Shown one piece after another: positions 1-62,085 of a DNA stretch of 64,000 nucleotides. The position numbers and the translations under genes are program-made. The stretch covers positions 16,660,354-16,724,353 of the forward strand of contig NC_045139.1 in NCBI RefSeq assembly GCF_008831285.2. Reading direction: 5' to 3'. Within the stretch, counting starts at the first letter, position 1; each line of letters starts with the position of its first letter. Below the pieces are notes generated by a model. That model made no database searches, was not told the origin of the DNA, and was given only the letters and a program-made list of their open reading frames with translations. Source of the stretch: Nymphaea colorata (Eukaryota; Streptophyta; Magnoliopsida; Nymphaeales; Nymphaeaceae).

Positions 1-3000
1 TTCAAGTTCTCAGCAGTCCCATTCTTCCACGGTGGTCAATCCTTCCAGTGTCTGTATCCTCCTTTACCTTGGATTTTCATATTTACAGCTTTTAATGACT
101 TAATTTGATCTGCTTTACAGGCTAGTGCCCTTAGTTCATTGGACAGTGGAAAGTTCATAGCACCAGCCAATGCAGCATCGTTACAACCTCCAGCCCCTGG
201 GCAATCTAATGTTGCTGGGCGTCCAGCTTCGTGGGATTCAGGAACTGTTGCTCAAAATGCACCATTGTCATTACGACCTCCTCTGTTGGCCGCATCTGGT
301 TATTCTTTTCCTGTTAGCTTGCAAGTGCCTGCAGCCTCTGAAGGTTCTCAAAATAGTCAGTCCAGTGCTGTATGTTTTCTGATCCATAATTCGGTACATT
401 TTCGGAAGTTTTTTTCCATATTGATGACCTGAATGTTATTAGCACTTCAATGAACAGAGCACCTCCGCAGCAGTTGCACAAGAATCATCAGGCATAACAT
501 CGGCTTGTAGTTCACCAATGGTTAATGTGCCTATTCATACATCTTCAATTCCTAATATTGTGCCAGCAGCAAATCCATATAATACTGTGAGGATGCCAGC
601 TATACCAATGTTTCCTAGTCCTCCTATGATGCCCGGCACCCCTGGAACCCCTGGGCCTCCTGGGATACATATGCCTGCCCCATCATCATCTTCTAATGTT
701 AATGCACGGCCACCAGCACTAGATTCATCTGCATCTGCAAGACCTACTTTGCCCTCTGTACCTCCAAGTTCATCAAATTCAGCCACAGTGAATGCTGCTC
801 AAAATGTTCAACAGCAAATGTATTCCGCATATCCAGGACCTCCAATAATTCCTCCACCTCAGGCACTGTGGCTGCGTCCTCCTCAAGCTGGGGGCCCACA
901 GCACCCCCCTTTCCTTCCATACCCACCCGTGTATCCTGGTCAAATTCCTATTCCTGTACGTCCTGTGTCATTTCCTCCAGTTACTTTGCCTGAACAATCT
1001 CAACCTCCTGGTGTTTCTCCTGTGGGACCTCCTGCAGAAACATCCTTAACTGCGGGAGGGGCTGGGCAGCAATCAAGCCCCCTGGGGACCCAATCACCAC
1101 CTCCAGGCATAGGTACATTATATTGCTTGATATATTATTTGGATTGTAAGATTGAGTTTTGAGGTGAAATTCTTTGTTGCAGATAAGGAAACAAAGTCTT
1201 CTGATTCAGTTAAGAAAGATGAGGTAATTATTAGCAGTGATGGTGATGATGCTTGGACAGCACACAAGACTGAAGCAGGGGTTGTTTATTATTATAATGC
1301 TATCACTGGAGAATCAACCTATACTAAGCCTTCTGCATTTAAAGGGGAGGTAAGAGCAGCTTTGACTTATTGTATACCCTTTCTTTATCAGCTTATGTGC
1401 ATATGCTGCTGATATTGTTGTACAAAATCTTTTGTTTTTGCAGCCAGAGAAAGCCATTGGCCAGCCAATTCCAATTTCATGGTATGTGCTTGTCTATTCA
1501 TGCTTATGGATAATGTTGTGAAAGAAATTCTTTCATGTGGATATTTTAAAAAGTTAGCCTGCTTGTCTTATTCAATGAAAAGGAACACCCTCATTGTTTC
1601 AATGTGCATGTGGGATGGTTGATCTTTAGGTTCTTATTCTCTTGGCTTTTTTCAGTTGATGGTTGCTTTTGTGTCTCATTGTGATAGCTGCCGGGCTACC
1701 AAAGTACTCTTGCAAGGGTTAAACCAAGGAAAAGAACAGAACACAAACACACTTTAACCACTAAAGAATTGGGGTTAACCAGAAAGCCTCCTTAATTTCG
1801 TTCATAATCTGGGGTTCACCCATCTCCACTATAAATAGAGTGATCACTTACATATACGGGTCGGAGAGTTCTTTTGACTCTGATGATCCAGACCTGGCTT
1901 ATTAAAGTGCCTAATAGCCATATACTTGGATCTCTTTTCATATTTGCAATATATACCCCTCAAGTACCTATCATATGGAATGTCATTTCTAACGTGCCAA
2001 ATCTCTGATCCCAGTCATGTTGTATGTTCGGCATGCTGGAGTAGTAAAGAGCAAAAGGCCATACAGACATGTTGGTTGTAGAAGTTAGTAATCTCACTGC
2101 CAATCTGGGTACACGCTGTGGTGATTCTGATGTTCATAGCATTGTTAGTGAATCTCAAAGAAAAATAGAATAGAAAAAAGACAATTGAGCAAGTGATCTT
2201 TGTCTTCAAGCTGGTTATTACTGAGATGAAGGAGACATCTTAGCTCAACTTTGTAAGGACAGAGCAATTCTTGATTCATGTAGTTTTGACTTTTGAGGCT
2301 TTGGTCTTAGTCGGTTTGATTTCATTTCTTTTTCTTAGGCAAGACTAAGTAACTTAGGTGCTTTGTTGCCCATCTAGGAGACTATTTGGTTGACTAGTTG
2401 CATAATTGACAACAAGACAGCTAGTTCATGACCATCTAGTTGGCTGGGCCATGGCTCATGGACTAGTCGACTGCCTTGGTTGGCTAGTCCATACTTGTTT
2501 TTCACTGACTGGTAGGTTCTTAGATCTTAGATGCAATTACAGTCTTTTTTTTTCCTCCTTTCTGGTTATTATTTTTCTTTATATCTCTGTGTGTTCATTT
2601 ACTTCCTTAGTTGTTTGCTGAAGGGTGCATTTATTACTCTTCTTTTCCCCTTGTTGTTTCACCTAGTTATGATTGCTTCTTAACTAGCTAATTTAGTTGG
2701 TTCAGGTAATTACCAACTAGCTATCTTGACTAGTCTTTCTAGGAACTTGACTGACCTACGTCTGACTTTCCGTGTTGGCAATTTAGCTTAGGAGAGATTA
2801 TGGGCACCAATGTCTATTTTTTCTTCGTGCTGCTACTCCACCCACAACACCGCTCCTCCTCCTCCCCCCCCCCCCCCTCTTTCTCCCCCAATTCTTTCTT
2901 TGTCTCCATCTCTGTCTTTGTTTTTGGGTGTGCGTGTTTCGTTAAGACTCAGTTGGAGCTTTTGGAAGTGCACTAGCTTTGATGTTCATCTGGGGCTAGG

Positions 3001-6000
3001 GCTGAACAACAAGCCGAGTAACTCGAACTCGGCTCAAATTTGAATTCGAGCCAGCTTTTATACTCAACAAGCCGAGCTCGAGTTGTCCGTTCAACTCGTT
3101 TATTTTATCGAGCCGAGTACGAGTTCGGTTAAGGAAGCTCGCTTAACCCAACTCGGCTCGCTTAACCCAAGAAAGGATATTTATTTTTTTCTTCATTCGC
3201 GCATCTTCATTTCTCATCTTTTTTTTCTCTCTCTTCACTTTCTTCCTCCTTCTTGCGACCAGTGGAATCCTCAAACCCTCCTTCCTTCTCTTCTCTCCTT
3301 CTCTCTCTCTCTCTCCCTCTCTATCTCTCTCTCCCCCTCTCTCCCTAAATCAGAGAACTGAAACCCTCTCCCTCAAACGAGAGAGGGTCTCAAGAACCCA
3401 ATGATTTCTAACTTTGTTTTGCAGAAGAGAAGAAGAAGAAGGAGAAAGAAGCGTCTGATTTTTTTTTGGAGAAGAAGGCGCCCAAAAATTTTTTTTGGAG
3501 AAGAAGGCGCCCAAAAAGCGCTTGGTTATGGCTCTGTGAAGAAGACCAAGGAAGAAATAGGGTTCTCCCTCAAACCCTCGCAGCCTCCCTCCTTCTCTCT
3601 CTCTCTCCCTCTCCTCAAACCCTCGCAGCCTCGCCCCTTCTCTTCTCTCCTTCTCTCTCTCTCTTCTCCCTCAAACCCTCGCTCGCAGCCTCGCTCCTTC
3701 TCTTCTCTCCTTCTCTCTCTCCCTCTCCTCAAACCCTCGCAGCCTCGCCCCTTCTCTTCTCTCCTTCTCTCTCTCTGTTCTCCCTCAAACCCTCGCCTCT
3801 CTCTCTTGTCCCTCAAACCCTCGCAAATTCGCTCCTTCTCTCTCTCTCTCTCTCTTCTCCCTCAAACCTTCGCAGCTTGGTGGGGGGAACAGGCTACTTG
3901 GGCCAACATCTGCTTCAAGAGCTCACCGAAAAGCCGTATGATGTAGCTTTCACATACCACAGTGCTACCAATCCTCCGCCGTCCCTCCTCCAGGCGCTGC
4001 TCCCCTCACCACCACGCGCCTTCAGGCTCGACCTCCAAACCGGCGAAGGACTCGACCTCATTGCCGACGCTCTGGGACAATGCCTAAACTAAACGAGTTA
4101 AACGAGTCGAGCTCGAGCTCGACTATAATAGGCGAGTCGAGCTCGAGCTCGTGTTAGGGAACTCGACTCGAGTTCGAGTTCGAGCTCTTTGAGCCGAGTC
4201 GAGCTCGAGCTGGCCAAGCTCGGGCTCGACTCGGCTCGTGTGCAGCCCTATCTGGGGTTGACAGCTAGATTGTTGCTCCAAGTAAGAGAGAATTCATACC
4301 AAGGGTGGTAAACCCAAAAGCCTGACAACCTTTGAGGATTTAGTTACAGGTATGTAACTTCTATGGAGTGCTTCATTAATAACCCCTTGTTTCTTGGTTC
4401 CTGTTGCCTAGGTTGGCCTGTTTTGCTGAAGGCCAATCTTTTAGTGAATAGCAGGTTTAATTGGGAGTTGGGACATGTATCTGACATTCAGATACAAATT
4501 TCCTTACCAGTATTTTGGTCGGGAAGCTGCTGGAATTGTTTCATTTTGGTAGCAAATTTTGTTATTTTGCCATTTGACATAAACCAACAAGCATTTTTCT
4601 TCTTCTTGGTAGAGGAGGTTCTCTTAGCAATGCATCTCATATGAAATATAATCTGTCATGTTTAAGTTTTGTCAGAATTTCATTGTAGATCAGGATGTTT
4701 CTTACAAGCTTCCTTCTTTTCAATTCCATATTTGGCAAGTTCCCTTCACTGTCTTTGAGAAATTGGTGTAATTCACTCTTGTGATGCAGAGATTTCGGTT
4801 TGACTTGTTTATATGTGTAATTATATTCCTGATTTTCAATTTTTACTTTTTCCACATGTTATTTAATTGAAATTCTGAACGATTAGTTCATTTTGGAGAT
4901 AGTGTTCAATGGAATGTAGGGCTTCAGATCGTCCATGTACAGGTCTAACCGGTCCATCATTCTATTCTATGCGGTCATTGGATTGGTTTCCACAAGGCCC
5001 TATATATTGCCCAGGACCATATCCAACCTCAGGGTGTTAATCTAATGTCTTTCACCGAGACAGATTTGTCCTTCATGTGGGTTAGCATATACAATTAATG
5101 TACCATTTCATGGATCCAATCCAAACTAAAAGGATACTTGTGATCAATTTTTGTTGAGAGCCGATTAGATGCCATGTTTGATTTGCTATATTGCCAATAT
5201 GTGATGGTTGATTGCCTTTCAGGGAGAAGCTGGGGAGTACAGATTGGTCCCTGGTCACCACTAATGATGGCAAGAAATATTACTATAATACAAGGAGCAA
5301 GGTATTTTATTCCTTGGTTTAGGTCTTATTAGTTATTTTGTGATTCTAATTCTACTTAAGATTTTTGAACTTGTTAACATAGATTTTCCTTTTGAATTTC
5401 AAGCGTTGGATGCCCAAGACACGTGAGTTTCCAAAGTAAGGTCTATGTTCATAAGTTTAACAGCCTTAGTTAGAACCACAATCACGGAAATCTACCATGC
5501 ACAGAAGGGGTGAGAACATTGTCTTGTATTTTCAGTGTCCAGTTACTCTGTTTGATCAGTGTCATTATTACCATCAGATGAGCTATGAGTATGCTATCGC
5601 TATTCTCTGAAAGGTGTTAAGTGAAGTCATATACAAAAAATGTGCATGATCTTGGGATTATGCTGCAGTATGCCTAATTCCAGATGCTGCTGTTGTTCTG
5701 GAACTTTATTGAGAGCTGCTTTATGGTGCTTAGTATGTGACAATATATGATTGAGCTAAAAGAAACTGTTACTATGGAACTGAAATTTGACTGGAACTGC
5801 TCCTTAGTAGTGATCATTTTTTGGTCTAAAAACCCTAATAAATTGAATTTCTGGATAAAAAATGGAACATGTCAAATGTGGATAACATTGAAGAAAAAAT
5901 AATTAGTGAAAAAGGAATAGCCTGACTGTGGCCCTTATGAGCAATATTCTTTGATGCCCTACAAAGTGACTGCTGGTTGTAGATTATTCTACCACTATCT

Positions 6001-9000
6001 CAACCTTCTCTACTAAAATAATTTTCTTTCTTGTCCTTAAAAATAAAATTTATGAACCTAACAATAAATTCTATACTGAAATTTTACCAATGATAGTCTC
6101 CTGATATGTCTGTTTGTTGCCATATCTTAATGTGCTATGTTGTGCTTAGTTGATTTTATCAGCAAGGCTACCTTTTATTGGTTTCTGCCATTCATGTTGT
6201 TGGATGCATTGACAATTTGACATGTCTGAATATGTGCATCTGCCAGGTAAGTAGCTGGCAAATACCCATTGAGGTTGTGGAACTAAGAAAGAAGCAGGAA
6301 TCTGAATCTTCTTCAAAAATGAGTGCACCATCTGCTCCAAATTCTGGTGGATTGGAAGAAAAGTCTCCTTCTTCTGTCGGTCTGAGTGCTCCTGCAGTTA
6401 ATAGTGGTGGTCGTGATGCAATGACACTTAGACCCTCTGCTGTGCCAGTGGGTTCATCTGCACTGGATCTGATTAAGAGGAAGTTGCAGGATGCTGGCAC
6501 ACCTGCTGGCTCATCTCCTCTTCCAGCTTCATCAGTCTCTTCTGCAACTGAGGTGAATGACCCTAACATGGTGGAGAATACTGCAAAGGACCAGCAACTT
6601 GACAATTTAAAAGAAAAAATTAGAGATGCTAATGGGGATGGCAATATGTCAGACTCGTCCTCCGATTCAGATGATAATGATGGTGGACCATCCAAGGATA
6701 AATATATCATGGAGTTCAAGGTATCGTTAGATTATAAATGATTTGTTTGTCCATAATTGGAAGAAATGCTTTCCTACTTGATGCTGCAACATGTGACAAC
6801 TGCATGCAGTGCATCTTCATATGTATTTAACAGGAAATGCCATTCTTTTCATTCAGTATATCCGTTAGGTTGTTTTAACTTTTTAACTAAATTTCTGCAC
6901 TAAAATTAGCTGTTCTTCTGTCTCCAGGAAATGCTGAAAGAAAAAGGAATTGCACCTTTTTCAAAATGGGATAAAGAACTTCCAAAAATTATTCTTGATC
7001 CACGTTTTAAGGTTTGTTTACTCAAGACTATCTGTTACCTTGTACAGATGGATGAAGCTCTATGAGTTGAGAGTTCTGTTTAACATGCACGAGCATCTTA
7101 ATTGGTGCTGGGTGAAACTATTTTGGTGTTCATGCATTTATTGCTCCGTTTGGTGTTTTTTTTTTTCATGAACAGTGGCCACTACTTATTTGTAGCAAAG
7201 ATTCATTGTTCTTCTAACTGGTTTTACTTGTCTTTTAAACACTTTGTCTTGTGTTGGACTTTTGAATAGCTCTTAGATGCTTATGAAACTAGTGTTACTA
7301 GCATGATCCTGAAATCTGGCTTGTCCTGGTAATTGACTTATTTGCAGTTGCCATCTTTACTTTTTCTGGTGTAGTTGCTTTACCTTGGGGTCACTCCTAT
7401 GCATTCTGAAACCTGTGCCCATTTGGTGCCGGCCTTATGGATAAGTTATATCTGGCCTCTACACTTTCTGTGCTACTTCTTGAGCTTCAGGAAGGAAGCT
7501 ACTTCGTGCGTTGAATTTATGCCTGTAAGATGAATGACCCTGAACTTATGGACTTAGGAATGTCATCTTTGTTAACTTGTGTTTTTTCATATAGATTCTG
7601 TTAACGTTTTTGCGCATCATCTAGGTAATGATGGAGGGGTGCTTCTGTATAGTAGGTTAGGTTGACTGCAAGTCTACCACATCATGGGCAATCTACCATT
7701 TGTGGTCACATCCAGATCTTCTGTCAATCCCTGTTATTTATTTATTTATTTAGATTTTGCTGCTAGTCTTTTTAGCTGTTTGCTTTCATGCAGGCTGTAC
7801 CAGGTTATGCATTAAGGAGGTCTCTGTTTGAGCACTATGTTCGTAATCGAGCCGAAGAAGCACGAAAGGAGAAACGGGCAGCACAAAAGGCTGCGGTTGA
7901 GGGTTTCAAACAATTGCTGGAAGAAGCTTCAGAGGTTATATTATGGGCTTGTCTTAAATTTTCACTGCAACTCTTTAGGTGACAATTTCCTTACAGTTAT
8001 AGATTTGGAGATTCTTGCGCTTGACTTTGTGCTCTCGTACGGCATCTTTTGTTCTCCTACCTCCTATTTTTGTTTCTTATGTTCTTCATTTACTCCACAT
8101 CAGGATATTGATCACAAAACTGATTATGCAACGATTAAACAAAAATGGGGAAATGATCCACGATTTCTGGCCTTGGATCGCAAGGAGCGAGAGCAGTTAT
8201 TGAATGAGAAGTAAAATATTTTTCCTTGTAGTTTCCCATAGGTTTTTCTTTTCTAATTATATTTAACTTTGTGCTACATGTTGGACGTATATGTAATTTG
8301 CTATAGGGTTCATCCTCTGAGGAAAGCTTATGAAGAGAATGTCCAGGCTGCCCGTGCAGCTGCAGTTTCCAGCTTCAAGTCTATGCTTCGAGATAATCGA
8401 GATATCAACAGCAGTAGCCGTTGGTCCAGGGTAAGTTTAGGCTTTAAATAATAACTTTCTACTGTTTGTTTTTGAGAATTTCAAAGGATTGAGTTTTTCC
8501 CTTGTTTTTTTTATAATGTTATAAAATAAGCATATTTTAAGTTTCACTATGCTATGTCATTGTTAGACTTTGTCTCCTTGCTTTAGCTTTATAATGCTTT
8601 TAACGTCTGAAACAACAAAAGGATGGACTGTTTTGGGAACGAGGAAACTTTTTCAAGAATCCTATTGGAAAAATCTTTTGGTTAGCAATTCATGGTTTAA
8701 AGTTTAAACAAATCATAAATTTGATGCTGAAGAAAGGAAGAACTGGGAATTCCTCCCACTTTTTAGTAATGTTTGTGAATTATGATAGTCGTCTTGTCAT
8801 TACAAGTATCAAATATTATGTATGTTAGGTGGGTGAAAATTTTGGCTTGCAAAGGCTTCCTTACAGGCTTTTCTTGTTTCAGCACTTGTGACTCTTTGAT
8901 GTATATAATTACATCCACTGTGAATATCATCCACAAAATGCCAAGGTACATCATGATGGTCCTCATGGTTGCCTGTGGAATTTATGTATTTCCAGTTGCT

Positions 9001-10949
9001 CCCAGTACTCTATTACGTTGTTGGATATGTTATGGATGTGGTAATGGTTGCCTTTGACAATGTAAATGGCTGTTTGTGAGTGCATATATGAATGAAGGTT
9101 GTATTCTTGGAAGAAGGCATTTCTTTTCTCTACTATCACGTGATAAAATTCTTTCCCCCCCTTCCAATGAATTGCTGTTTCTTTAGATGAAGGATAGCTT
9201 ACGGGGTGATCCAAGATACAAATCAGTGAAGCATGAAGAAAGGGAAATTTTGTTCAATGAATACATATCTGAACTAAAAGCTGCAGAACAAGAAGCAGAA
9301 AGAGCTGCAAGGGCAAAAAAGGAGGAAGAGGTAGCGACATAGTCAATTTTTTTGTGCCTTTTGAGTATTTTGGTAATAGCTATTTTTCATATATCTTTAT
9401 TATTTGGTCCACTTAAGATTTATCATTTGCATCCAGGAGAAGTTGAAAGAAAGAGAACGTGAAATGCGCAAGAGAAAAGAAAGGGAAGAACAAGAAATGG
9501 AAAGAGTGCGCTTGAAGGCGCGTAGAAAGGACGCAGTGGTTTCTTATCAAGCCCTTCTCACAGAGAAGATAAAGGATCCTCAGGTATTTCTCAAGCTAAA
9601 GTTGGTAATACTCATTAGGTATTGGCTTGCTTGTCACTACCAGTTGCTAATCGTTGATAAGTGCAAATTTCCTTAACAATTGAAGCTTAAAATGGAATCT
9701 TTGACTTTCTGATCCTGTGAGGCACATATAGATGTAAGCAACATAGTTGTGTCCTGGAAGGGTTTTTTGTTGTTCTTATCTACCAACTGATTTGTTTTAT
9801 GTGAATCCCTCATATAAGGGCATTTTAAGTTTGAACTGAGTTGGTCATCAGCTAAAATGTTTGCTATTCTCTATGTTGCATTGCATACTTTCAGGCATCA
9901 TGGACTGAATCAAAACCTAAATTGGATAAAGATCCACTTGGTCGTACCAAAAACCCTGATCTCGAGGAAACTGACATGGAAAAACTATTTCGGGAGCATA
10001 TGAAGATGCTGTATGAGGTGAGAATGTGAATATGTTGCTTTAGTGGGCCAAATTTTTATGTCAATAAACTTCTGGATAAGTTGGTTGTGTCAGTTACATT
10101 ATCATTCTTGATTGGCTACTCTTTTCAGAATTTTATTTTTTCTGATTTTAATGCTTGGGTAGGAGCATAATTTCGACTTAATAGGTTTCTATATACAAGT
10201 ATTTTTGTGCTTCTCTTTCTCTATGCATTGGGTTTTTCTTTTATAAATGGCATTGTACTAGGTGGCTAAACCCGTGATATGGTGTTCCTACCATCTTGCC
10301 AAGTCTTGTTTTGTGAATTTGGTATGTTCTTTGATGCCTTTCCACAATAATTTTCATACCAACTGAACATGTTCCTGCCAACAAAAATATAATGAGTTGT
10401 GAACCTAGATTCATCATTAGTGCATATCTGCAGCACTCCAATCGTCATGTAGCATTTCTTTTCCCAGTTTCAATCTTGAAAGATTTGGTGATGGTTTTCC
10501 AAGAATGCATCTTTTGCCCCCATCATCAGAATGGTTTACAACTCACTGCCTGTATCACTCATGTTATCCATGAACTTGAGATATCATGACCATTCACAGT
10601 ACTTAGTTTCTCTTCTGGTTTTTTCCTGTTACAGCGCTGTGCTCGTGAATTTCGGGCCTTGTTAGCTGAAGTTATCACAGGGGAGACTGCATCCCAAGCA
10701 GCAGAGAATGGGAAGACTGCGCTCAATTCCTGGACTATGGCAAAGGAACTGTTAAAACTTGACCCAAGATATTCAAAATTGCCTAGGAAAGAGAGGGAGT
10801 CTCTCTGGCGTCGACATGTTGATGAGATAATTCGAAAGCAAAAAAAGTATGATACCAAGGATGAGAAAGCGAATCCTATTGAGAAAGTTAAAACTCCCAT
10901 GGATTCGAGGAGTTCACCAGTGCCGGGGAGAAACCATGGCCGGAGATGA
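1..10949 (+). CDS. PRP40C: Pre-mRNA-processing protein 40C-like (WW/FF splicing factor), 5' end missing
   Basis: Partial gene; the upstream exons lie outside the window. Exons, all in phase: 2-49 (tail of an earlier exon), 121-369, 458-1112, 1183-1349, 1444-1481, 5223-5301, 6247-6720, 6928-7011, 7794-7934, 8104-8210, 8307-8430, 9187-9330, 9437-9583, 9895-10017, 10635-10949 (TGA). They give 964 residues. Order: a Pro/Ser/Gly-rich low-complexity region (about 1-320), WW domain 1 (about 340-370, DDAWTAHKTEAGVVYYYN), WW domain 2 (about 388-420, STDWSLVTTNDGKKYYYN, split by an intron), a Ser/Asp-rich acidic linker, then a chain of FF domains from exon 8 to the end with typical signatures such as DPRFLALDRKERE and DPRYSKLPRKERE. 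Known for the family: PRP40 proteins bind the phosphorylated RNA polymerase II tail and U1 snRNP/branch-point factors in the nucleus. The order of WW domains and long FF array fits PRP40C rather than PRP40A/B. Intron 5 (1482-5222) is swollen by a transposon. Confidence 0.93.
2395..2790. repeat. CTAGT/TTGACT-rich repetitive block in PRP40C intron 5
   Basis: The motif GACTAGT/CTAGTTGG and its complement recur many times (TTGACTAGTTGC, CATCTAGTTGGC, GGACTAGTCGACTG, CCAACTAGC, TTGACTAGTC). It looks like the short-motif arms of a non-autonomous DNA element, but I could not find convincing ends or a target duplication. Confidence 0.35.
3560..3870. repeat. CT-rich tandem repeat inside the hAT element
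   Basis: Roughly 45-60-bp units, each containing CTCAAACCCTCGCAGCC followed by a run of CTTCTCTTCTCTCC and CT repeats, occur about five times with small length differences. They may derive from the pyrimidine-rich 5' leader of the captured gene that has since multiplied by slippage. The units leave one frame open on the plus strand. Confidence 0.7.
3873..4092 (+). pseudogene. Captured 5' coding fragment of a Rossmann-fold (RmlD/MAT2B-like) gene
   Basis: The frame reads LVGGTGYLGQHLLQEL, followed by KPYDVAFTYHS, FRLDLQTGEGLDLI and ALGQ, about 70 codons, then a stop at 4090-4092. GGTGYLGQ is a glycine-rich NAD(P)-binding motif of extended SDR proteins. The sequence resembles the N terminus of plant proteins related to dTDP-4-dehydrorhamnose reductase and methionine adenosyltransferase beta subunit (recognised from memory, not by a search). 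Only the first strand-helix units are present; catalytic and substrate-binding parts are missing, so it cannot be an enzyme. It lies between the CT-rich repeat and the right arm of the hAT element. The surrounding frame is open from 3466 (208 codons). Confidence 0.72.
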
Positions 10950-35057: not shown

Positions 35058-38000
35058 TCAATGGCTGTGATCTCTTTCAATCTCCTCCGTGAGAACTTCT
35101 TCCCCTTCTAAAAGCTTCTCCACCACATCTGGAGGGAGACCAACAAGCTCCATAGTCTTCTCATACACCCTCTTTGACGTTTCCAAATTATGTGCCTCTT
35201 CAGATGCATTGGTTGGTCGACAATCAACTGAAATATAGGCACAGACGGGCCAATCATCTGCCTTCAATACGGAGCAATATTCTGGAACTTGTGGGTCAGT
35301 TGCTGTGAACAGAGTGCTCCTTGCACCTGCAGAAAACCAGACACGTATAATGCTCTTTGAATAATAAAATTACAGAAAGTGTGAAATAGAAAGAAAACTA
35401 AAAAATCCATCAAATTGGTCAAGACGGCGCACCTTCTTGTGGAGTGAAAAGGAAATATGGAATCAGATGATATGCAGCTTGAATAGTGCTAGAAAGAGTT
35501 CTGGCCTGCATTTATGTAAATCTTAAGCAACAACTTAGAAACCATATGAAGCAAGGTCAATGACAAAATTTACTAGGCTAATGGAAACAAAGATAAAGGT
35601 ATTGTGGTTAAATAAAGCATTTGCTGCAGACAGAAAATATATAGTAGAAACATTACATTCTGAAGTTTGGACACGTGTAGATTCAGAAAAGGGTAGCCCC
35701 TGGAGATAATGACCACCAAGAAGCTTAGAATAATTAAGACGACACTGCGCAATTTTTTACTACGTTATTGCCTTACCAGAAATTAGGAGATACATTAGGT
35801 TCTGGAATTTAGTACTTTACAAAGACATACCCTGCATTTTCTCATAGTTTATATCAATGTTATCTGTATCGTACGATACGCACATATCGTATAGGTCTAA
35901 AAAACATATACGATACACGATACGCTCGTGTATCGTAAGTGTATCGCCCTTATCGTACGATACAGGCGATACACCCCCGTATCGTACGATACAAGGAAAA
36001 ACATAAAATTTTTAATTTTTAAAGTTTAAACAGTCCTCCCTCTCTTTCTTCTTGTATTTCAAGACTCCAAGAGACGTGGGAGGGAGAGATTTTGCTCATT
36101 TTCATAAATAATAACCGAGGATTCATCGATTTGGGGAGATATTATCGTTGAATCATGAAAGATAATAACTATATGTTTTGAACTTATGAAATTGTAATGT
36201 AATCTAAGTCCTAAGACTCCAAGTCCTAAGACTCTAAGTCCTAAGATTCTATAAAATTGTCAAGTTTAAAATTGTGATGGATGCTCATTATGTTATTTTG
36301 AATCTCTGATTTCTTATTTTTGAATGTGTTGTCGATACACATGAATGTTCCTTATGTATGATGATCTTTTTGATATTTGAAAACAATTTTCTTGATTTCT
36401 GACTTTTGTTTATTTTTCAGATTTTTAATGAATTTTCTCTATTTTTCCGATTTTTTAATACTTTTTCAATTAAAAAATTAATTTTACGATATGCTACGCT
36501 ATTTTTATGATAAGTTATGATACGGCGTATAGGTCGGCCTAACCAATACGCGATACACTACGCCTTGTAGAACATTGGTTTATATAATCACTTATAGCAG
36601 TATTCAAAGCTCAGAGTAGGGAAAAAGAAAATTAATGGAATAAAACATTGCAGAAAAAGTGAAGTAAAATGAAAAACGATATGAAAAAAAGGTAGACAAT
36701 GAATCTATTTTGATGTGGAAGCATGCCATGTGCCACATGGCTCTCAGTATAATTCCTTATAGCAATTTTCCATGCTCAAAGTAGGAAAAAAAATAAATAA
36801 AGAAAAATATTGCAGAAAAACTGAAACAAAAATGGAAAAGGAGAAGCCAAAAAATGGTAGAAATTCAATCTTCCAAGATTTTAATTTGTTCATGAAATTA
36901 ACGTGCAGCCTTTCAAAATTTTTAATTAGTTCATGAAGTTAACATGCAAAATCACAGAGAGACAAAGAGGTGCCAAAAGAAAAACACACACACAAACACA
37001 TAGAAAAACTGAAGAAAAAAGAAAAAAGAAAAAAGGTCGACATTCGACCTTTGAAGTTTAAATTAGTTCACGAAGTTAACATGCAAAATCAGAGAGAGAC
37101 AGACAGAACAGAAGCTTACAACATTTGTTTGAACTGTTCCAGGAGTTTTAATTAGTTCATGAAGTTAACGTGCAAAATCACAGAGAGAGAAGCAGGTGCT
37201 AAAAAAACACACAAATAGAAAAATGGAAGAAAAAATGAAAAAGAAAAAAGGTAGACATTCAACCTTTGAAGATTTAAATTAGTTCACGAAGTTAACATGC
37301 AAAATCATAGAGAGACGGAGAGAGCAGAAGCTTACAACATTTGTTTGAACTGTTCCAGGAGATACGCATGTGACACTGATGCCGGCTTCTGAAGGTATCT
37401 TTTTATTGAGAATGCTATTAAACATAACCTGGAGTAGAATCTAAATTATTAGTCCTGCGCATCTTTCCTCTAAAACACATTGACGAGAATGGACAGTTAC
37501 AATAGTGTTGCACCTGAGCAAGTTTGCTACTTGAATAGCCAATTAGACTTGAAAATTTCCTCTTGCCAGACACCACATTCATGTCATCAGGATCAACAAA
37601 GCCTACTTGGTGCATCTATGTCACGAGTAGGTCATCCATTTAATAGAAATATAAATGGTAAGGAATGAATTTGTAGCAAGCAAAATCATAAGAAGAAAAT
37701 TAAGTGGGTTCTATCGTCATGGTATGAACAAATAACCCTAAAGGCACATTAAAAAGACTATATAAATGAACACCACTTTAAGGTGGGCAGCAAGGAGACG
37801 TATGAAGATATATTTCAGCCACAAATAGACAAAAAGTATAACCATATTTGTATTTCAGTTTCACTGACTATTAGAGTATGAGCTCTGCACAGGATATGAA
37901 TGAAAATTAAATCGTGTACAATCAGATATTATCACCCTTTATTTTCAAGGGTAGTTTTGGAAGTAATTGGGCTTAAGGAGTTCTAAGAATGTGGAAAAAC

Positions 38001-45673: not shown

Positions 45674-48600
45674 TCAGCTGCCATTCTGAACCACATGCTG
45701 AGGTTGTTGATCTGCTTGAGGTTTTGAGATCTTGTGTAGTGACCTATACTGCAGACGAACGCTTTCCCCATTATCTAAGGTCTTGAGAAGATACCTGGAG
45801 CCACCAGAACCAGGATCAGCAAAGAACATGATGACCAATATCAAGTTTGCAACCAGAAGCACCAACTTGCCTAGCTGAAGGCGGTTCTGAAATTTCAATC
45901 ACATTTCTGAAAGATGCTAAAAGCATGCATCATTAAACCGCTTAATCTCACGACAGATAAATTTCAGACTGCCCAATTTGTTGAATGTATAACACTTTTC
46001 TTTTTAATAGTGACTAAAAAGTTTTCCCATAACAATCATACGAAGTTCTAGTGTCAAGCACAAATCTACAATAAATAGCCTTTAGGGATGCAAGTGGATA
46101 TATTCGCTTAAAACGATTCCATGAAAATATTCCACAAAATTAACAATACCCTGAAAAACATCTTCCACACAGAGACAACGAATACAAGGGAATAGCAACT
46201 TGCACTTCCTTGGATAGCAGTAGAACATGTCTCAAAGAACTGGCATTTGTTGGACAATAGAAGTCATTACATCTCTTCTTTTTAGCTCCTAAAAATGAGA
46301 TAAAAGTTCAAAATACAATGCACGAAGTTGAAGCAACTGATGGGAAAAATTAATATTTTGATTAACTTACCAGCCATTTAGACACTGTGAGGTGATCACT
46401 GCTTCCCTTCCTACAAATTTCTCAGGTGTTCTCCTATTCCCCTGCAAAAAGCTTCTCTTATATGAATTACATATTCAAAATTATCATAATTTCAAGGCTA
46501 CCGATAGTTCTCCAATAAATATGCAAGAGTGAACTCTGACCTTAATTATCACTTTCTCATTTACAGAAAATGGATATTGTACGGCTTTCAGTCCAAGGTT
46601 CTCACCATCTGCATTCATTTCCCCATCTTCCTGTAGTTGAAATAGCAAAGTCAAAAGCCTGCTAAATTTGTAAGAACAAAGCTAACGGAACCACATTAAC
46701 TAATCCTCAGTTAGTGAAAGAATGAGCACCAAGATAGATATTTCAAGCAGAAAAAAAAATATTCAAAATAGCATGGCAAAGTTTTATTTCATAAATCATG
46801 ATAGCACAGTTTGAGCTTCCCAGAAAATACCTTGTTTAGTCTCTTTACTGAATCCACATGCTCAACGCCTTCCTTCCTTCTTTTACGGAGTGCTGCATTA
46901 TGGAATAGCCTCCGGTCGTCCTCATGCTTTACAGCTGCAGCAGCAGCCCTTAGAGCTGCACAAGGTCTCATCAATTCCTTCCTCCTATCTGATGATGGAG
47001 AAGTGTACTTATAATTAAGAATACATACCATGATTAGGGATCAATGAACCACTATCAATCTCCACACCGCAGGTACTGCACCTGGACTATATAATAAACA
47101 GGAAATCAAATTATTGTTCATTACTCCAAAAAGATGCAACTCTGCGATTATCTAAATAATGCATGCAGGAGTGAAGATTTGACATGCATCAGGTCACATA
47201 AACAACACATCAACAGCAATACACGCCTTCCAGGTACAAGCCCACTAAGAAAAGAACAAGACGAAGGCCTGATATATTAGGCAACAAAGATGGAGATAAA
47301 CAGTAATAACACATATGCGTGTGGTAGGAACCTGCTGCCCTTGACACAAGATAGCCAGGACAAGCAGTCAAGCACAACTAGAGAAAACTAAACATTGTCT
47401 CGTGCCATTCCTTTCAAATAAGTCAGAGACATACCATTTCATTTGTCTGTGTGTGTGCATGAGAGAATGAGAACATGTAACACGGAGTTTACAGAACACG
47501 GAGTTTCCAGAAAATGGATTTCTATCATGTATGTAAGGATATTAAATGAGTCAAGCCAACTCGGGCTTGACTGGAACTCATGCGGCTAAGCTCAACTCGA
47601 GCTGGACTCGTTTAATAAATGAGTTGAGTTTGAGTTAAGAACTCAACTCACTTCAAATAAACAAGTCAAACTCGAGCTAGACAGGCTCGGCTTGAATAAA
47701 CTCTCCTAAGCTTGTGGGATAAATATATGTAAAACATGTTTCACATTTTCATCAAGTAAAAGAAGTTGCCTCAATGGGCTTCTGTGGGATTTGCAAGAGG
47801 CAGGTTCAATGTTCAAGTCCTCTTGTCCCCTGCTCATGACAAAATAATTTTTAAATATGGCTCTGCGAGCTTGAGCTCAGCTTGAGCTCAGCTCGAGCTC
47901 AGCTCGTGAACATTCCTACATGTGTATCTCCAATCCTCAATACATAAGTCTAGATCCCACTAAATATTTCAAAAGTAAGACTGTTGTATGGCCGGTTCTC
48001 TCCATAATATACAAAAAAGTATGAGTAGAATGCCGTCTTCTAATTTTGAATGAAATATTTCACAAGCCAGATAACTAATCTGTGAGCAACATAGAAGTAA
48101 TACAAACAGGTTCATCCACCATGATCCAAAATAAGGCATTTAGACCTGGAAAGAAACTATAAGCATCATTGGAAGACTTCAACAATGAAAAATTGAAAAA
48201 ATTACAAATCAATGAGAAATATCTGACAGAGATAAAGAAGAATACAAGTTACATTTTTTTAACAATGGGTCATCTCAGCTCACCATATCAATGACTTTCC
48301 TTAGCATCATCCCACCAAATGAATGACCACAGGAGACAACCATTGCATCTTCGAGGAATGCACCACTGCAATGCAAATGTCCCATCAACCAATAATATCA
48401 CAAACAATAAACAATGTCACATTCCACACATTTAGAAGAAATAACACCAAATGGATGGATCAACAACAAAACAAACTGGACCAACCGTATCAGAAAATCG
48501 CGCTTGAAAAATCAAAACTGCTAAGAGAAGACAAAACTGACAAAAATTGAGACAAACGTAAATTTTAGATAACACTATATCTTTTCGGAAAAATGTTATC

Positions 48601-55804: not shown

Positions 55805-55929
55805 TTCCACGTATATATATACACACACACAATTGCATAAATAACATTTGTAATGTCCCACCCATCTAAGTTTGACATCATACATATCAGGACAGCCTCC
55901 TTATATCCTCAACAAAACCTTACTATATG

Positions 55930-55961
<32 letters not shown>

Positions 55962-56180
55962 ATTGCATGAATAACATTTGTAATGTCCCACACACCTAAG
56001 TTTGACATTATACATATCAGGACAGCCTCCTTATATGCTCAACAAAACCTTTATATATATATATATATATACACACACATACACAATTGCATGAATAACA
56101 TTTGTAATGTCCCACACACCTAAGTTTGACATTATACATATCAGGACAGCCTCCTTATATGATCAAAAAAACCTTACTAT
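55805..56180. repeat. Three-copy tandem repeat with embedded TA/CA microsatellites
   Basis: Units of about 130 and 124 bp. Each has a TA run, a CA run, AATTGCATRAATAACATTTG, TAATGTCCCAC, CTAAGTTTGACAT, and CATATCAGGACAGCCTCC. The common AATTGC starts at 55831, 55961 and 56085. Copies differ mainly in microsatellite length and a few point changes, so the duplication is fairly recent. Confidence 0.92.
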
Positions 56181-59100
56181 ATAGACTTGCCATATTATCA
56201 TTGAATATAAGAAAACTATATTGTGGTTTCTAAATTCCTGTTACACTTTTTTCATTAATTGCTTTCCTCATTCAACTTTCTTCTCAGCTGTTACTGTTAG
56301 TACCAACCAACCTGTACACTAAAAGGTTCAATAAGTCCTTCAAGGTGTACTATTTAATTTCATGTACATAATTGGCATTAGTCCTTTGTGGAGTACAATA
56401 CAACACTTCATCCTAACAGAAGTGGGAATTTGTAGTTGACAATTGTCCTATTTATTCCACTCCCAAAGTATCTTTTATATGATTCGCTACGGGATGACAC
56501 TGTTTTTTTTGTTTGTTCTCAACCATGGTGTTCCTGCCATATATAAATATTTGCAATAGATTCGAAGGCGATATATATAAAAACAAGTTGAAATAGTCGA
56601 TGGATTGTTCAGATCTCACGGATCCAAGTAAACATGATTATAATAATAGCAATAACTTTGCACGATTTTAATTAAATATATAATGAATCTATATCTATTG
56701 ATATTTTTTAATGTTTACTTGGGGAAAATTACTTAATCTATATCTGTATCTATTGACTGCGATAAGCCAATAACATGCTTGTATATGTAATATGATTATT
56801 AGATGATGTTCGATAATAAGAATACTATGTTTTTAACATGGGCATAGACAGTTAAAAGCTTAAGTTAGTGTTCCCACTTGGGTGGATCTGATTTAGTTAT
56901 ATAAGACCGTCTCACGAGACCAGAGTCACTGTTGTATGTAATTAAAAATTTGTTAACTATATGTTTAGTGTCTCATGAAAAAAAAAATTTGATTCTACCC
57001 CTGGTTCTTAAAAAGGAGTTCATAAAACATGTTATGGGAAAAAGTTTTCTCGATTTTCATGCAATGTACTTTGATTTTGTCCATGATTTCTCATTAATCT
57101 ACAAACACTTATAATCACGACATAATTTTTTAGTGAAAAACAATATATTTAATGAAAAAAAAATGAGTTAGGAGCCTGTATAAAGGCAGGTCTCGAGTTC
57201 GATTCCCATGGGTGTTATATTTTTGTGTCTTAAAGTGGTAGGGCGCGACATCCAAGTTAAATGGTGTACAGTTACTATCACTGACATTGACGCAGCTCAC
57301 GACCCCTGAAAACCATCAATGCACTCGTACTACTTTTCATTTTCTATTTTAAATCTCGATCATCAACAACATTGAAGGCGATCTAAAAATTTAATACGAT
57401 TAAAAATATCGCATCAAATACACATTCACTGCTACATGGTCCAAGATGATTTAAATGCTTAAACTGACAATACATATCATTGCGTGCCAAATTCAGTTTG
57501 CTTCTAAAAATATTAGAAATCTAAATAAATTAATAGCAAACAACTTACCAATTAAAATTTCATGTATACCTTTAAAAAATTTTAATGTAAGTGTATTCCT
57601 TAACTCTTTCCTACAATATAGTTCACTTGAACTCAAATATTAACGCGCTTGCTTGTGTTGCACCAGAGGATCGAGTCGCGATTTGGTTGGAAAATTGACT
57701 CAAGCACCTAGTTTGGAAGTGTGTCACAGGTTGCCGAGGGAGGGGCATTCATGTCATTTCCAAAAAAGAGAAATTGCGTTGAGTGGAATGGTGAAATGAA
57801 GACGTAGCGACAACATCGACCCATGATGAGAGTCGTCAATAATGTCTTTGGTGACAGTGATCATGATGATGGCGCCTAACGTGGTAATTAAAATTGCTTT
57901 GACAATAAATAAATTGATTAATCACTGTATATATAATATGTATAGTCACATGATTAGCGTAATAGGTACGTTTGTTTGCTTCTTCAAAGCAGTACTTAAT
58001 TCAACGATATTGTTTTTTATCTTTAATTTTTATCAAACTGAGAAATTTATTTTCTGAAACATAAATCCAAGTCCACCAAACACAAAAGGGTTATGGAAAT
58101 CTGGATTTTGTTTTAAATTTATTTAAATCCTGAAATAAGTGTTTGAAAACTTATTTCCAATTGTATATTTCCAATGCATCAAACGAGTCCTAATAGAGAG
58201 TCTTGGATCATTTGAGAGATATTTTGGTCTTTTTTAAATAGTTTTACTTTTTTCATCTTCTCTAGATGGACAACACAACTATTTTTATTAAATGTAGCAC
58301 ATAGAGGGCTTGATGGAAATAAAAAGAAAGAGTAGTTACATTCTAACTCGTTAGGCATGAACCTTACCATTGATTTAATTTGCAGGAGAAGTTGAGAAAA
58401 AAAAAATGATATTTTCGTCATTTAATGTTAATTCATAATTTCTTTTGAAATTAGTTATGTTTATAATATAATTGCAAAATAAATAAATAAATAAATAAAC
58501 TTAAATAATTGTTGATGAGTCTAACACCTAAAGGTCTAGTAGCTACTTATGTCTCATAAATTGTTTATAGTATACTATACTGCCATGATGGTGACCACCA
58601 GAGAGAAAATACACCTCAATAAGGCCATAGTAGTAATGGATCATCACCATCTTTGAGAGGGACTACACTCTGACTTTCATCAAAGGACCCTATTGGATGT
58701 TAGAGCAGGCTTTGCTTCTAACAAATTAAAAGTTTTTAAATTTTAATAAATTAAAAGTTTTAAATTTTTTTATAATTATTTAGCTACTATGAAAGCTGGT
58801 AGGCTGTCAGCTTTTATTTTGAATAACATAAAAAGGGATCACTATATGCAAATTAAAGTATAGTAGAGACGACACCCAAAAGCAAAGAAAGCATATCTTT
58901 TACCATAAAAGGACACGGGGTTGGGTGAAAACTTCACTTTTTGTTTAGTGGCAGTCTCTCCTATTTACTCAAAACTTACCTTAAAGTAAAAGCCATTGAG
59001 AGTAAGTAAAATGAGTTTAAAAACGATCCAGCCTCTATAATAAGAGGAACAAATAAACATTGAAAAAAAAAAATTGACCAATAAGTCTGGTTCCAGTTTG

Positions 59101-60990: not shown

Positions 60991-61600
60991 TGATAATGAA
61001 AGTTAAAATTAATCCCACTTGCATCTCCTTTTTATTCTCTCCATTACCAAATTCATGTTTGACTGAGCGATTTTTTTTGTTTTCCTTTTTAGCGGCTTAA
61101 ACCCCAAAAAATTTTCCAAAAACTTCAGCCGGACATGATATTTGGATACCAATGGAGATGAAGAAAAGTCGATACGTTCTACATGCCAAGATAGGGGAGT
61201 TATAAAGAACCTCTCCAATATAATGATAGGCTTATTTACATAATTCAGACCAAGGATTTGAGGTCCGACTAGATGCGGGGTTCTTCGCTACTTAATGTGG
61301 ATCTTAAATCCACACTTTGTCAAATTCAAGCCTACCATAATCCATATGCTACTTGTTTGCCCTCATATCCGAAGGTATCTCAAAATCCCTTTTCTTGAAA
61401 CCCATAGTTTAAAGTTCTTTAAACTAACTAAGGATTTCAGCTAGTCGTTGCAGAATGGATCTAAAATTGAGGATTTTATATGTGTGTGTGTGTGTTTTAT
61501 CGGTGTGGTTGGAGGTTGTGTTTGCCATCAAATTCATAAACATGAGATCCTTGATAGACAAACAACAAACATGGCTATGTTGCCTATCACAGAGCCAGGA

Positions 61601-62085
61601 TGATCTTATGGGCAGTTTGGTATTAAGAACACATTGTGAATGCTTTATGAATCAGTCCTAAATTTAAGGTAGATTTATATGAACTCACCCAAATATCAAG
61701 CAGATTAATAAAACACCAAAACATTGTTCTTACCACCGAACAACTCCTTAAGGAGTGTTTGGATAATTGTAAGTGTGTAATGAATCTAACCCGAAAATTG
61801 CTGCATATATTCGTGGAGCACTAGAACCCAGTGTTCCACGAAGATCTTATGGGCAGTTTGGTATTAGAACATCTTGTAAGTGCTTTATGAATCTAACCTA
61901 AATTTAAGATAGATTCATATGAATTCACTCAAATTTAAAGTATATTCATGAAACACTAACATATTGTTTTTACCACCAAATAGCTCCTTAGGAAGTGCTT
62001 GGACAATTGTAAGTATCTAGTAAATATGCCTCAAGAATTGCGGCATATATTCATGGAGAGCTAGAACCCAGTGCCCAGTGCTTCA
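61601..62085. repeat. Diverged tandem duplication, about 242-bp unit
   Basis: GATCTTATGGGCAGTTTGGT occurs near 61601 and again near 61843. Each is followed by similar text: GCTTTATGAATC, TAAATTTAAG, CTCCTTA-GGAGTG and CATATATTCRTGGAG-AGCTAGAACCCAGTG. Small indels separate the copies. Confidence 0.85.

Follow-up and report, generated by a model that had tools for sequence, protein, structure and literature searches.

A Pack-hAT transposon family in Nymphaea colorata carrying an exon fragment of a host RmlD/MAT2B-like gene

Capture of host gene sequence by hAT transposons has been reported in grapevine (PMC2528002), maize (PMC3260210), animals (PMC8277862), and maize together with rice (PMC8903248). 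In grapevine, Hatvine-6 copies share their ends and a transposase coding sequence, while their variable interiors often match host exons and introns and are sometimes common to few copies (Benjak et al., 2008, PMC2528002). In maize, gene fragments were reported in 2 Ds2 and 9 Ds-l4 elements, which are non-autonomous, have Ac-type ends and contain filler DNA from genes on other chromosomes, several captures including introns (Du et al., 2011, PMC3260210). The Pack-hAT elements of maize and rice have terminal inverted repeats (TIRs), an 8-nt target-site duplication and captured coding DNA, and are non-autonomous (Gisby and Catoni, 2022, PMC8903248). In the western clawed frog, Pack-hAT-N8_XT carries a 291-bp piece of one gene on three chromosomes with three distinct duplications, and hAT was the commonest source in the animal set, accounting for 208 of 370 cases (Tan et al., 2021, PMC8277862). 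Here we describe a non-autonomous hAT element of 1,254 bp at positions 2997-4250 of a 64,000-nucleotide stretch of Nymphaea colorata NC_045139.1 (C2:16660354-16724353; hereafter the window). A first-pass annotation of the window regarded gene capture by hAT elements as much less well known than capture by Pack-MULEs and Helitrons; the publications of 2008, 2011, 2021 and 2022 show it to be less rare than that view implies. Very probably, a hAT element captured part of an exon of a host gene and the resulting chimera then spread by transposition.

The two ends of the element form inverted repeats alike at 11 of 12 positions (TAGGGCTGAACA at 2997-3008 and TAGGGCTGCACA, the reverse complement of 4239-4250), and the flanking octamers TCTGGGGC (2989-2996) and TCTGGGGT (4251-4258) agree at 7 of 8. 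Allowing one mismatch, the window contains 23 matches to CGAGCTCGAG, where shuffles predict 0.87, and 17 of these matches fall inside the element; motifs of the GAGCTC/CGAGCTCGAG type are present in both arms. Folded as single strands, the arms reach -59.4 kcal/mol (3' arm, z -9.0) and -36.8 kcal/mol (5' arm, z -5.3), and in each case 0 of 200 shuffles did as well. These measurements bear out the hAT-type ends, target duplication and short-motif arms originally described for the element. A perfect 8-bp duplication, ATCTGGGG, can be read with one extra base on the left in the window copy alone. The boundary at 2997 was retained because TAGGG begins 16 of the 19 copies in which a left end is present, the others being L043 (TAGAG), L049 (TAAGG) and L037 (CCGGG).

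The host genome (408 Mb, 783 contigs) was searched by DNA. The element query gave 115 matches, and the best 40 of 1491 candidates were scored, so all counts of copies are lower bounds. The gene-derived part of the element, 201 bp at 3878-4078, aligns without gaps to locus L044:4507-4707 with 190 of 201 identical positions (95%). Among those 40 candidates, no other sequence outside copies of the element matches the piece. The donor match is located on a different contig from the window, at C4:18904506-18904706 within exon 1 (C4:18904478-18904708) of the donor gene. One capture-bearing copy (L033) is also found on C4, about 11.5 Mb away. The piece corresponds to nt 29-229 of the 231-nt exon, contains neither the start codon nor an intron, and ends 2 nt ahead of the splice donor. 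Donor exon 1 opens with an ATG at L044:4479 and remains open for 77 codons up to GTAAGT at 4710; exon 2 (L044:5021-5180) follows in frame after TTTTCAG. Exons 1-3, joined by hand reading, match RmlD_sub_bind in Pfam (E 2.2e-27) and human methionine adenosyltransferase 2 subunit beta (MAT2B) in PDB (E 2.9e-16), in agreement with the Rossmann-fold enzyme origin first suggested. The captured part of the window copy itself matches Pfam Epimerase (E 2.6e-5, above the cut-off), and its 70 amino acids gave no match in a PDB search. The longest frame of the element (3412-4089, 226 codons) gave Rossmann-type Pfam matches and one chance-level match; no transposase match was obtained in this frame, the one element frame scanned (others run to 194 codons). 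In the 9.9 kb around the donor, nothing beyond the 201-bp piece matches the element at >60 bits. The coding fragment reported in the first-pass annotation is real and its donor is separate from the element, while the extent given there, 3873-4092, was too wide.

Six other places align with the element query almost end to end, starting at its position 1 or 32 and ending at 1254, with 82-91% identity. L037 (C1:3.243 Mb) aligns piecewise as a seventh, and all seven carry the captured piece. The chimera is present at no fewer than eight chromosomal sites on seven large contigs. A total of 21 elements were compared, namely the window copy, seven capture copies (L031-L037) and 13 copies without the piece (L038-L043 and L045-L050, with two in L046). 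For each copy, a script compared several candidate end pairs (≤22) and kept the best. In 17 of the 21, the flanks form an 8-bp duplication with no more than one mismatch, exact in 11 and different in all 17, and the TIRs of these copies have 0-3 mismatches of 12. The four without such a duplication are L046b, two copies in which no left end was identified (L031 and L047) and one in which no right end was identified (L043). Each of L032-L037 is bounded at the same two points as the window copy, which supports the boundaries originally proposed, and is flanked by an exact 8-bp duplication; seven capture copies thus have seven different duplications, and L031, the eighth, has lost its left end. 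The 13 siblings combine the same ends with no captured piece or with other interiors, as had been anticipated, and copies with both ends measure approximately 1.1-1.5 kb among those compared. The idea that 2997-4250 is no transposon at all, with ends paired by chance around a pseudogene, has a negligible probability and is refuted by these seven further capture copies and 13 siblings, the complete ones being bounded at the same two points.

All eight capture copies have the same left join, CT/TGGTGGGG, and the same right join, GGAC/AATGCC. In the 5'-arm tree they are split from the 13 others with a support of 0.97. The copies fall into two subgroups, with subgroup A (the window copy, L031, L032 and L037) containing the whole captured piece and subgroup B (L033-L036) lacking about 45 nt near its start. 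Kimura two-parameter (K2P) distances among the capture copies range from 0.017 to 0.069 (28 pairs, hand-chosen columns, no rate applied). The insertion in the window had been called fairly recent, which holds in relative terms only: the K2P range is the measure at hand, and of the seven complete capture copies, the window copy alone has an imperfect duplication.

From these sequence features, 2997-4250 is classified as a non-autonomous hAT transposon of the Pack-hAT type, its past movement being judged from the duplications and the copies. The 8-bp duplication, the short TAGGG/CAGGG-kind inverted ends and the subterminal motifs in both arms agree with hAT, and we take this end type to be a mark of the hAT superfamily. 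The longest frame without a transposase, the donor lying elsewhere without an element and the distinct duplications agree with Pack-hAT. Other classes were rejected. A Pack-MULE would have a 9-10-bp duplication and long TIRs, against 8 bp and 12 bp here, and a Helitron would have TC/CTRR ends, which are missing, and no target duplication. The ends are not CACTA and the duplication is 8 bp, not 3 or 5 bp as in CACTA elements. An Rfam search of the window gave no match.

Several siblings carry other inserts. L043, L045, L046a, L046b and L049 have a common insert over most of its length, and L042 has parts of it, e.g., 90 bp at 91-96% identity. The L043 insert matches Pfam Ank at 21.6 bits (cut-off 21.1; E 2.5e-4) and ankyrins in PDB (E 6e-11), no single stretch passing by itself. 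L048 contains a 182-codon frame, which we presume to be trihelix-factor-like, and a second insert at element positions ~295-530. A frame reading MGVV.FFHF... is common to L040, L041 and L050; that of L040 had no match in Pfam. The right joins read GGAC/AATGCCTAAACTAAACGAG for the MAT2B-like piece, GGG/TAATGCCTAAACTAAATGAG in L042, GGG/TAAACGAGTCGAG in L043 and L045, and AAG/TAAACGAGTTAAACGAG in L048. By sibling comparison, the join cores are GGG/TAATGCC in L042, GGG/TAAACGAG in L043 and L045, and AAG/TAAACGAG in L048. With the joins of the other inserts placed solely by comparison of siblings, the right joins fall within about 20 bases of one another in the 3' arm, and the left joins vary widely.

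DNA-level template switching, while synthesis was stalled at the hairpin-forming 3' arm, is a reasonably likely route of capture and is favoured because the inserts seem to join the 3' arm within ~20 bases while their left joins vary. An ancestral element would have copied 201 bp of donor exon 1 into its interior, where the piece abuts the palindromic 3' arm on the inner side. After capture, the chimera spread to eight or more sites, with 8 bp duplicated wherever the insertion is complete, and subgroup B (L033-L036) lost about 45 nt of the piece afterwards. This is the FoSTeST scheme of capture, proposed for multicopy Pack-TIRs by Tan et al. (PMC8277862), who reported microhomology at one or more breakpoints in 67.6% of their cases. 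A bolder version, which we consider doubtful, is that the 3' arm is a fixed acquisition slot that stalls synthesis, so that gene pieces would be inserted time and again at its inner boundary (AATGCCTAAACTAAACG / TAAACGAG). Equally tentatively, independent captures would then have nearly one breakpoint in common and differ at the other end. If several independent donors were confirmed, the family would offer a genomic test bed for fork-stalling gene capture in plant hAT elements.

Two other routes can be weighed against the same joins. An element composed of a left part, foreign DNA and a right arm is also what tandem insertion could give, in which two related elements insert near each other on opposite sides of donor DNA and aberrant excision combines the left portion of the first with the right portion of the second, enclosing chromosomal DNA. 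The route was proposed for Pack-CACTA and is described for Pack-TYPE elements in a review (PMC13317346). It seems unlikely here, as two elements would have to flank a 201-bp stretch of donor exon 1, whereas the exon sequence obtained is an open frame free of any element, and the captured piece is very short and purely exonic. Considerably less probable still is that the piece came from a copy of the donor transcript, either RNA or cDNA. The piece is free of introns and stops 2 nt short of the splice donor, as such a copy might, but a cDNA would be expected to continue into exon 2. A junction so near the exon end may be due to chance (approximately 1-2%, our own post hoc estimate), the first insert of L048 seems by eye to hold intron-like DNA, and introns are retained in at least some of the Ds captures of maize (PMC3260210).

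A pattern made from the first 34 nt of the element found 88 left ends genome-wide at ≤3 mismatches, and the reversed control found 0. By eye, seven of the 88 are followed 3.6-4.3 kb downstream on the same strand by a match to the hAT dimerisation domain (PF05699; best 150 of 1113 candidate matches scored), against approximately 0.03 expected at random by our own arithmetic. Of these seven, two depart from the pattern at no more than 2 positions and five at 3 of 34. The loci are candidates for an autonomous partner, and one of them (C11:5545054) has an open frame of 699 codons. An eighth left end has its match 9.2 kb away and was left uncounted. We infer that a hAT transposase acts in trans on the family.

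Some observations weigh against the account of a single capture by template switching followed by spread in trans. In the 3'-arm tree, built on 150 bp of repetitive sequence, the capture copies do not group as a single clade. The right join has no clear microhomology (donor GGGAC/CAGT; siblings without the piece GTT/AATGCC). The clustering of right joins is provisional, since for the other inserts no donor defines the exact join, and Pfam searches with the typed L042 fragment and with the L048 frame gave no match. This clustering could also have been inherited from one event, or could reflect no more than a requirement for the arm in movement.

The coordinates of the features are given in Table 1.

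Table 1. Features of the captured-exon element and its flanks, in window positions
Feature	Position	Strand	Basis
Left target-site duplication	2989..2996	.	7/8 with right flank; siblings have 8-bp duplications at the same boundary
Left TIR	2997..3008	+	11/12 with right end
5' subterminal arm, GAGCTCGAG-type inverted motifs	2997..3175	+	Repeats; motif count against shuffles; fold; sibling conservation
CT-rich leader, CCTCAAACCCTC repeats	3176..3877	+	Tandem and direct repeats; sibling alignment (shared extent varies)
3'-splice-site-like stretch in leader	~3404-3424	+	Judged by eye
Captured exon fragment, RmlD/MAT2B-like (NAD-dependent epimerase type) gene	3878..4078	+	Donor exon match; Pfam Epimerase
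3' subterminal arm	4079..4250	+	Inverted repeats; single-strand fold
Two long palindromes in 3' arm	4108-4124/4135-4151 and 4191-4211/4217-4237		Inverted repeats
Right TIR	4239..4250	-	11/12 with left end
Right target-site duplication	4251..4258	.	7/8 with left flank

The most likely setting of the element is an intron of a gene encoding WW and FF domains, on the same strand, because a WW-domain frame (1131-1412, E 3.5e-9) lies upstream and two FF-domain matches (7816-8214 and 10590-10949) lie downstream on that strand. We take this gene to be PRP40-like. The acceptor-like stretch of the leader precedes most of the open frame, and exonisation through it is possible. Recruitment of the captured frame, either as a gene of its own through the 226-codon frame or as an exon of the surrounding gene, is nevertheless highly improbable. 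The captured part is open in the window copy, L031, L035, L036 and L037, the strand is that of the host gene, and donor and window copy differ by 7 synonymous against 4 non-synonymous codon changes. On the other side, the captured part is frameshifted in three of the eight copies (L032, L033 and L034), the four subgroup B copies have the ~45-nt loss, and the rest of the frame is low-complexity CT repeat. The synonymous excess can be explained by constraint on the donor branch alone. Because of the frameshifts, the captured piece looks like passenger DNA and not a gene, with no sign of protein function.

A splice-donor-like stretch, AGGTAAG, was noted by eye near element positions 180-195, in the 5' arm, in L039, L042 and L048 and is absent from the window copy. 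Together with the acceptor-like stretch TTTTGCAG, it could mark the intron bounds of an ancestral leader. Ten more loci picked by the 3' arm (L051-L060) are relatives in which that arm is nearly unchanged and the 5' half is different. A left end and a duplication with at most one mismatch were identified in 8 of the 10 (7 exact), and no left end was found in L054 and L057; seven range in length from 421 to 562 bp, and L058, with a longer interior, has 1,059 bp. L046b, one of the two copies in L046 (C3:7862000-7870900), has a left flank and duplication like those of L046a and a right flank like that of L045 (C3:7853500-7858800), inverted. It is probably a recombinant, and looks like the product of ectopic exchange between nearby copies. 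The 3' arm of L037 contains a tandem expansion of a GTCGAGTCGAGCTCGAGCTCGACTATAATA-like unit far longer than in other capture copies. An older-looking relative is present in the window at 47537-47918, with GAGCTCAGCTCGAGC-type arms, ends read by eye as TAAGGATATTAAATGAG and CTCGTGAACATTCCTA, inverted arms at 47589-47609 and 47884-47904, and flanks CATGTATG and CATGTGTA alike at 6 of 8 positions. The window also contains tandem arrays at 36920-37361 (216 bp, 2.0 copies), 55812-56182 (124 bp, 2.9 copies) and 61595-62073 (240 bp, 2.0 copies).

No publication on this hAT family was found among the best-ranked matches in the open-licence PMC literature, and its closest counterparts are the systems introduced above. 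It resembles Hatvine-6 as a plant hAT group with common ends and variable, partly gene-derived interiors that are sometimes common to few copies; unlike the Hatvine-6 copies, which share transposase coding sequence (PMC2528002), the element has no transposase match in the frame scanned. Like maize Ds2 and Ds-l4, it is non-autonomous and its filler comes from a gene elsewhere in the genome, but it has one exon piece in eight copies in place of several captures with introns behind Ac-type ends (PMC3260210). The maize and rice Pack-hAT elements are alike in TIRs, 8-nt duplication, captured coding DNA and lack of autonomy. They differ in their termini, having been sought with Bg-type ends in maize and Ac-type ends in rice (PMC8903248), whereas the present family, from another plant, has TAGGGCTG ends and GAGCTC-rich arms. 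Pack-hAT-N8_XT shares the sequence of capture followed by transposition, but is an animal element with a piece of 5' untranslated region in three copies (PMC8277862), compared with an exon piece in at least eight copies and other inserts in the siblings here. The Nymphaea colorata family is unusually complete in that a single genome contains the donor exon, the joins on either side of the piece, amplified copies distinguished by their target duplications, and siblings that lack the piece or contain other inserts. The capture step can thus be examined from sequence, in particular at the common right join beside the hairpin-rich arm. The family leaves the general picture of hAT capture unchanged and adds to the documented gene-capturing hAT elements one for which the donor and the joins are available.

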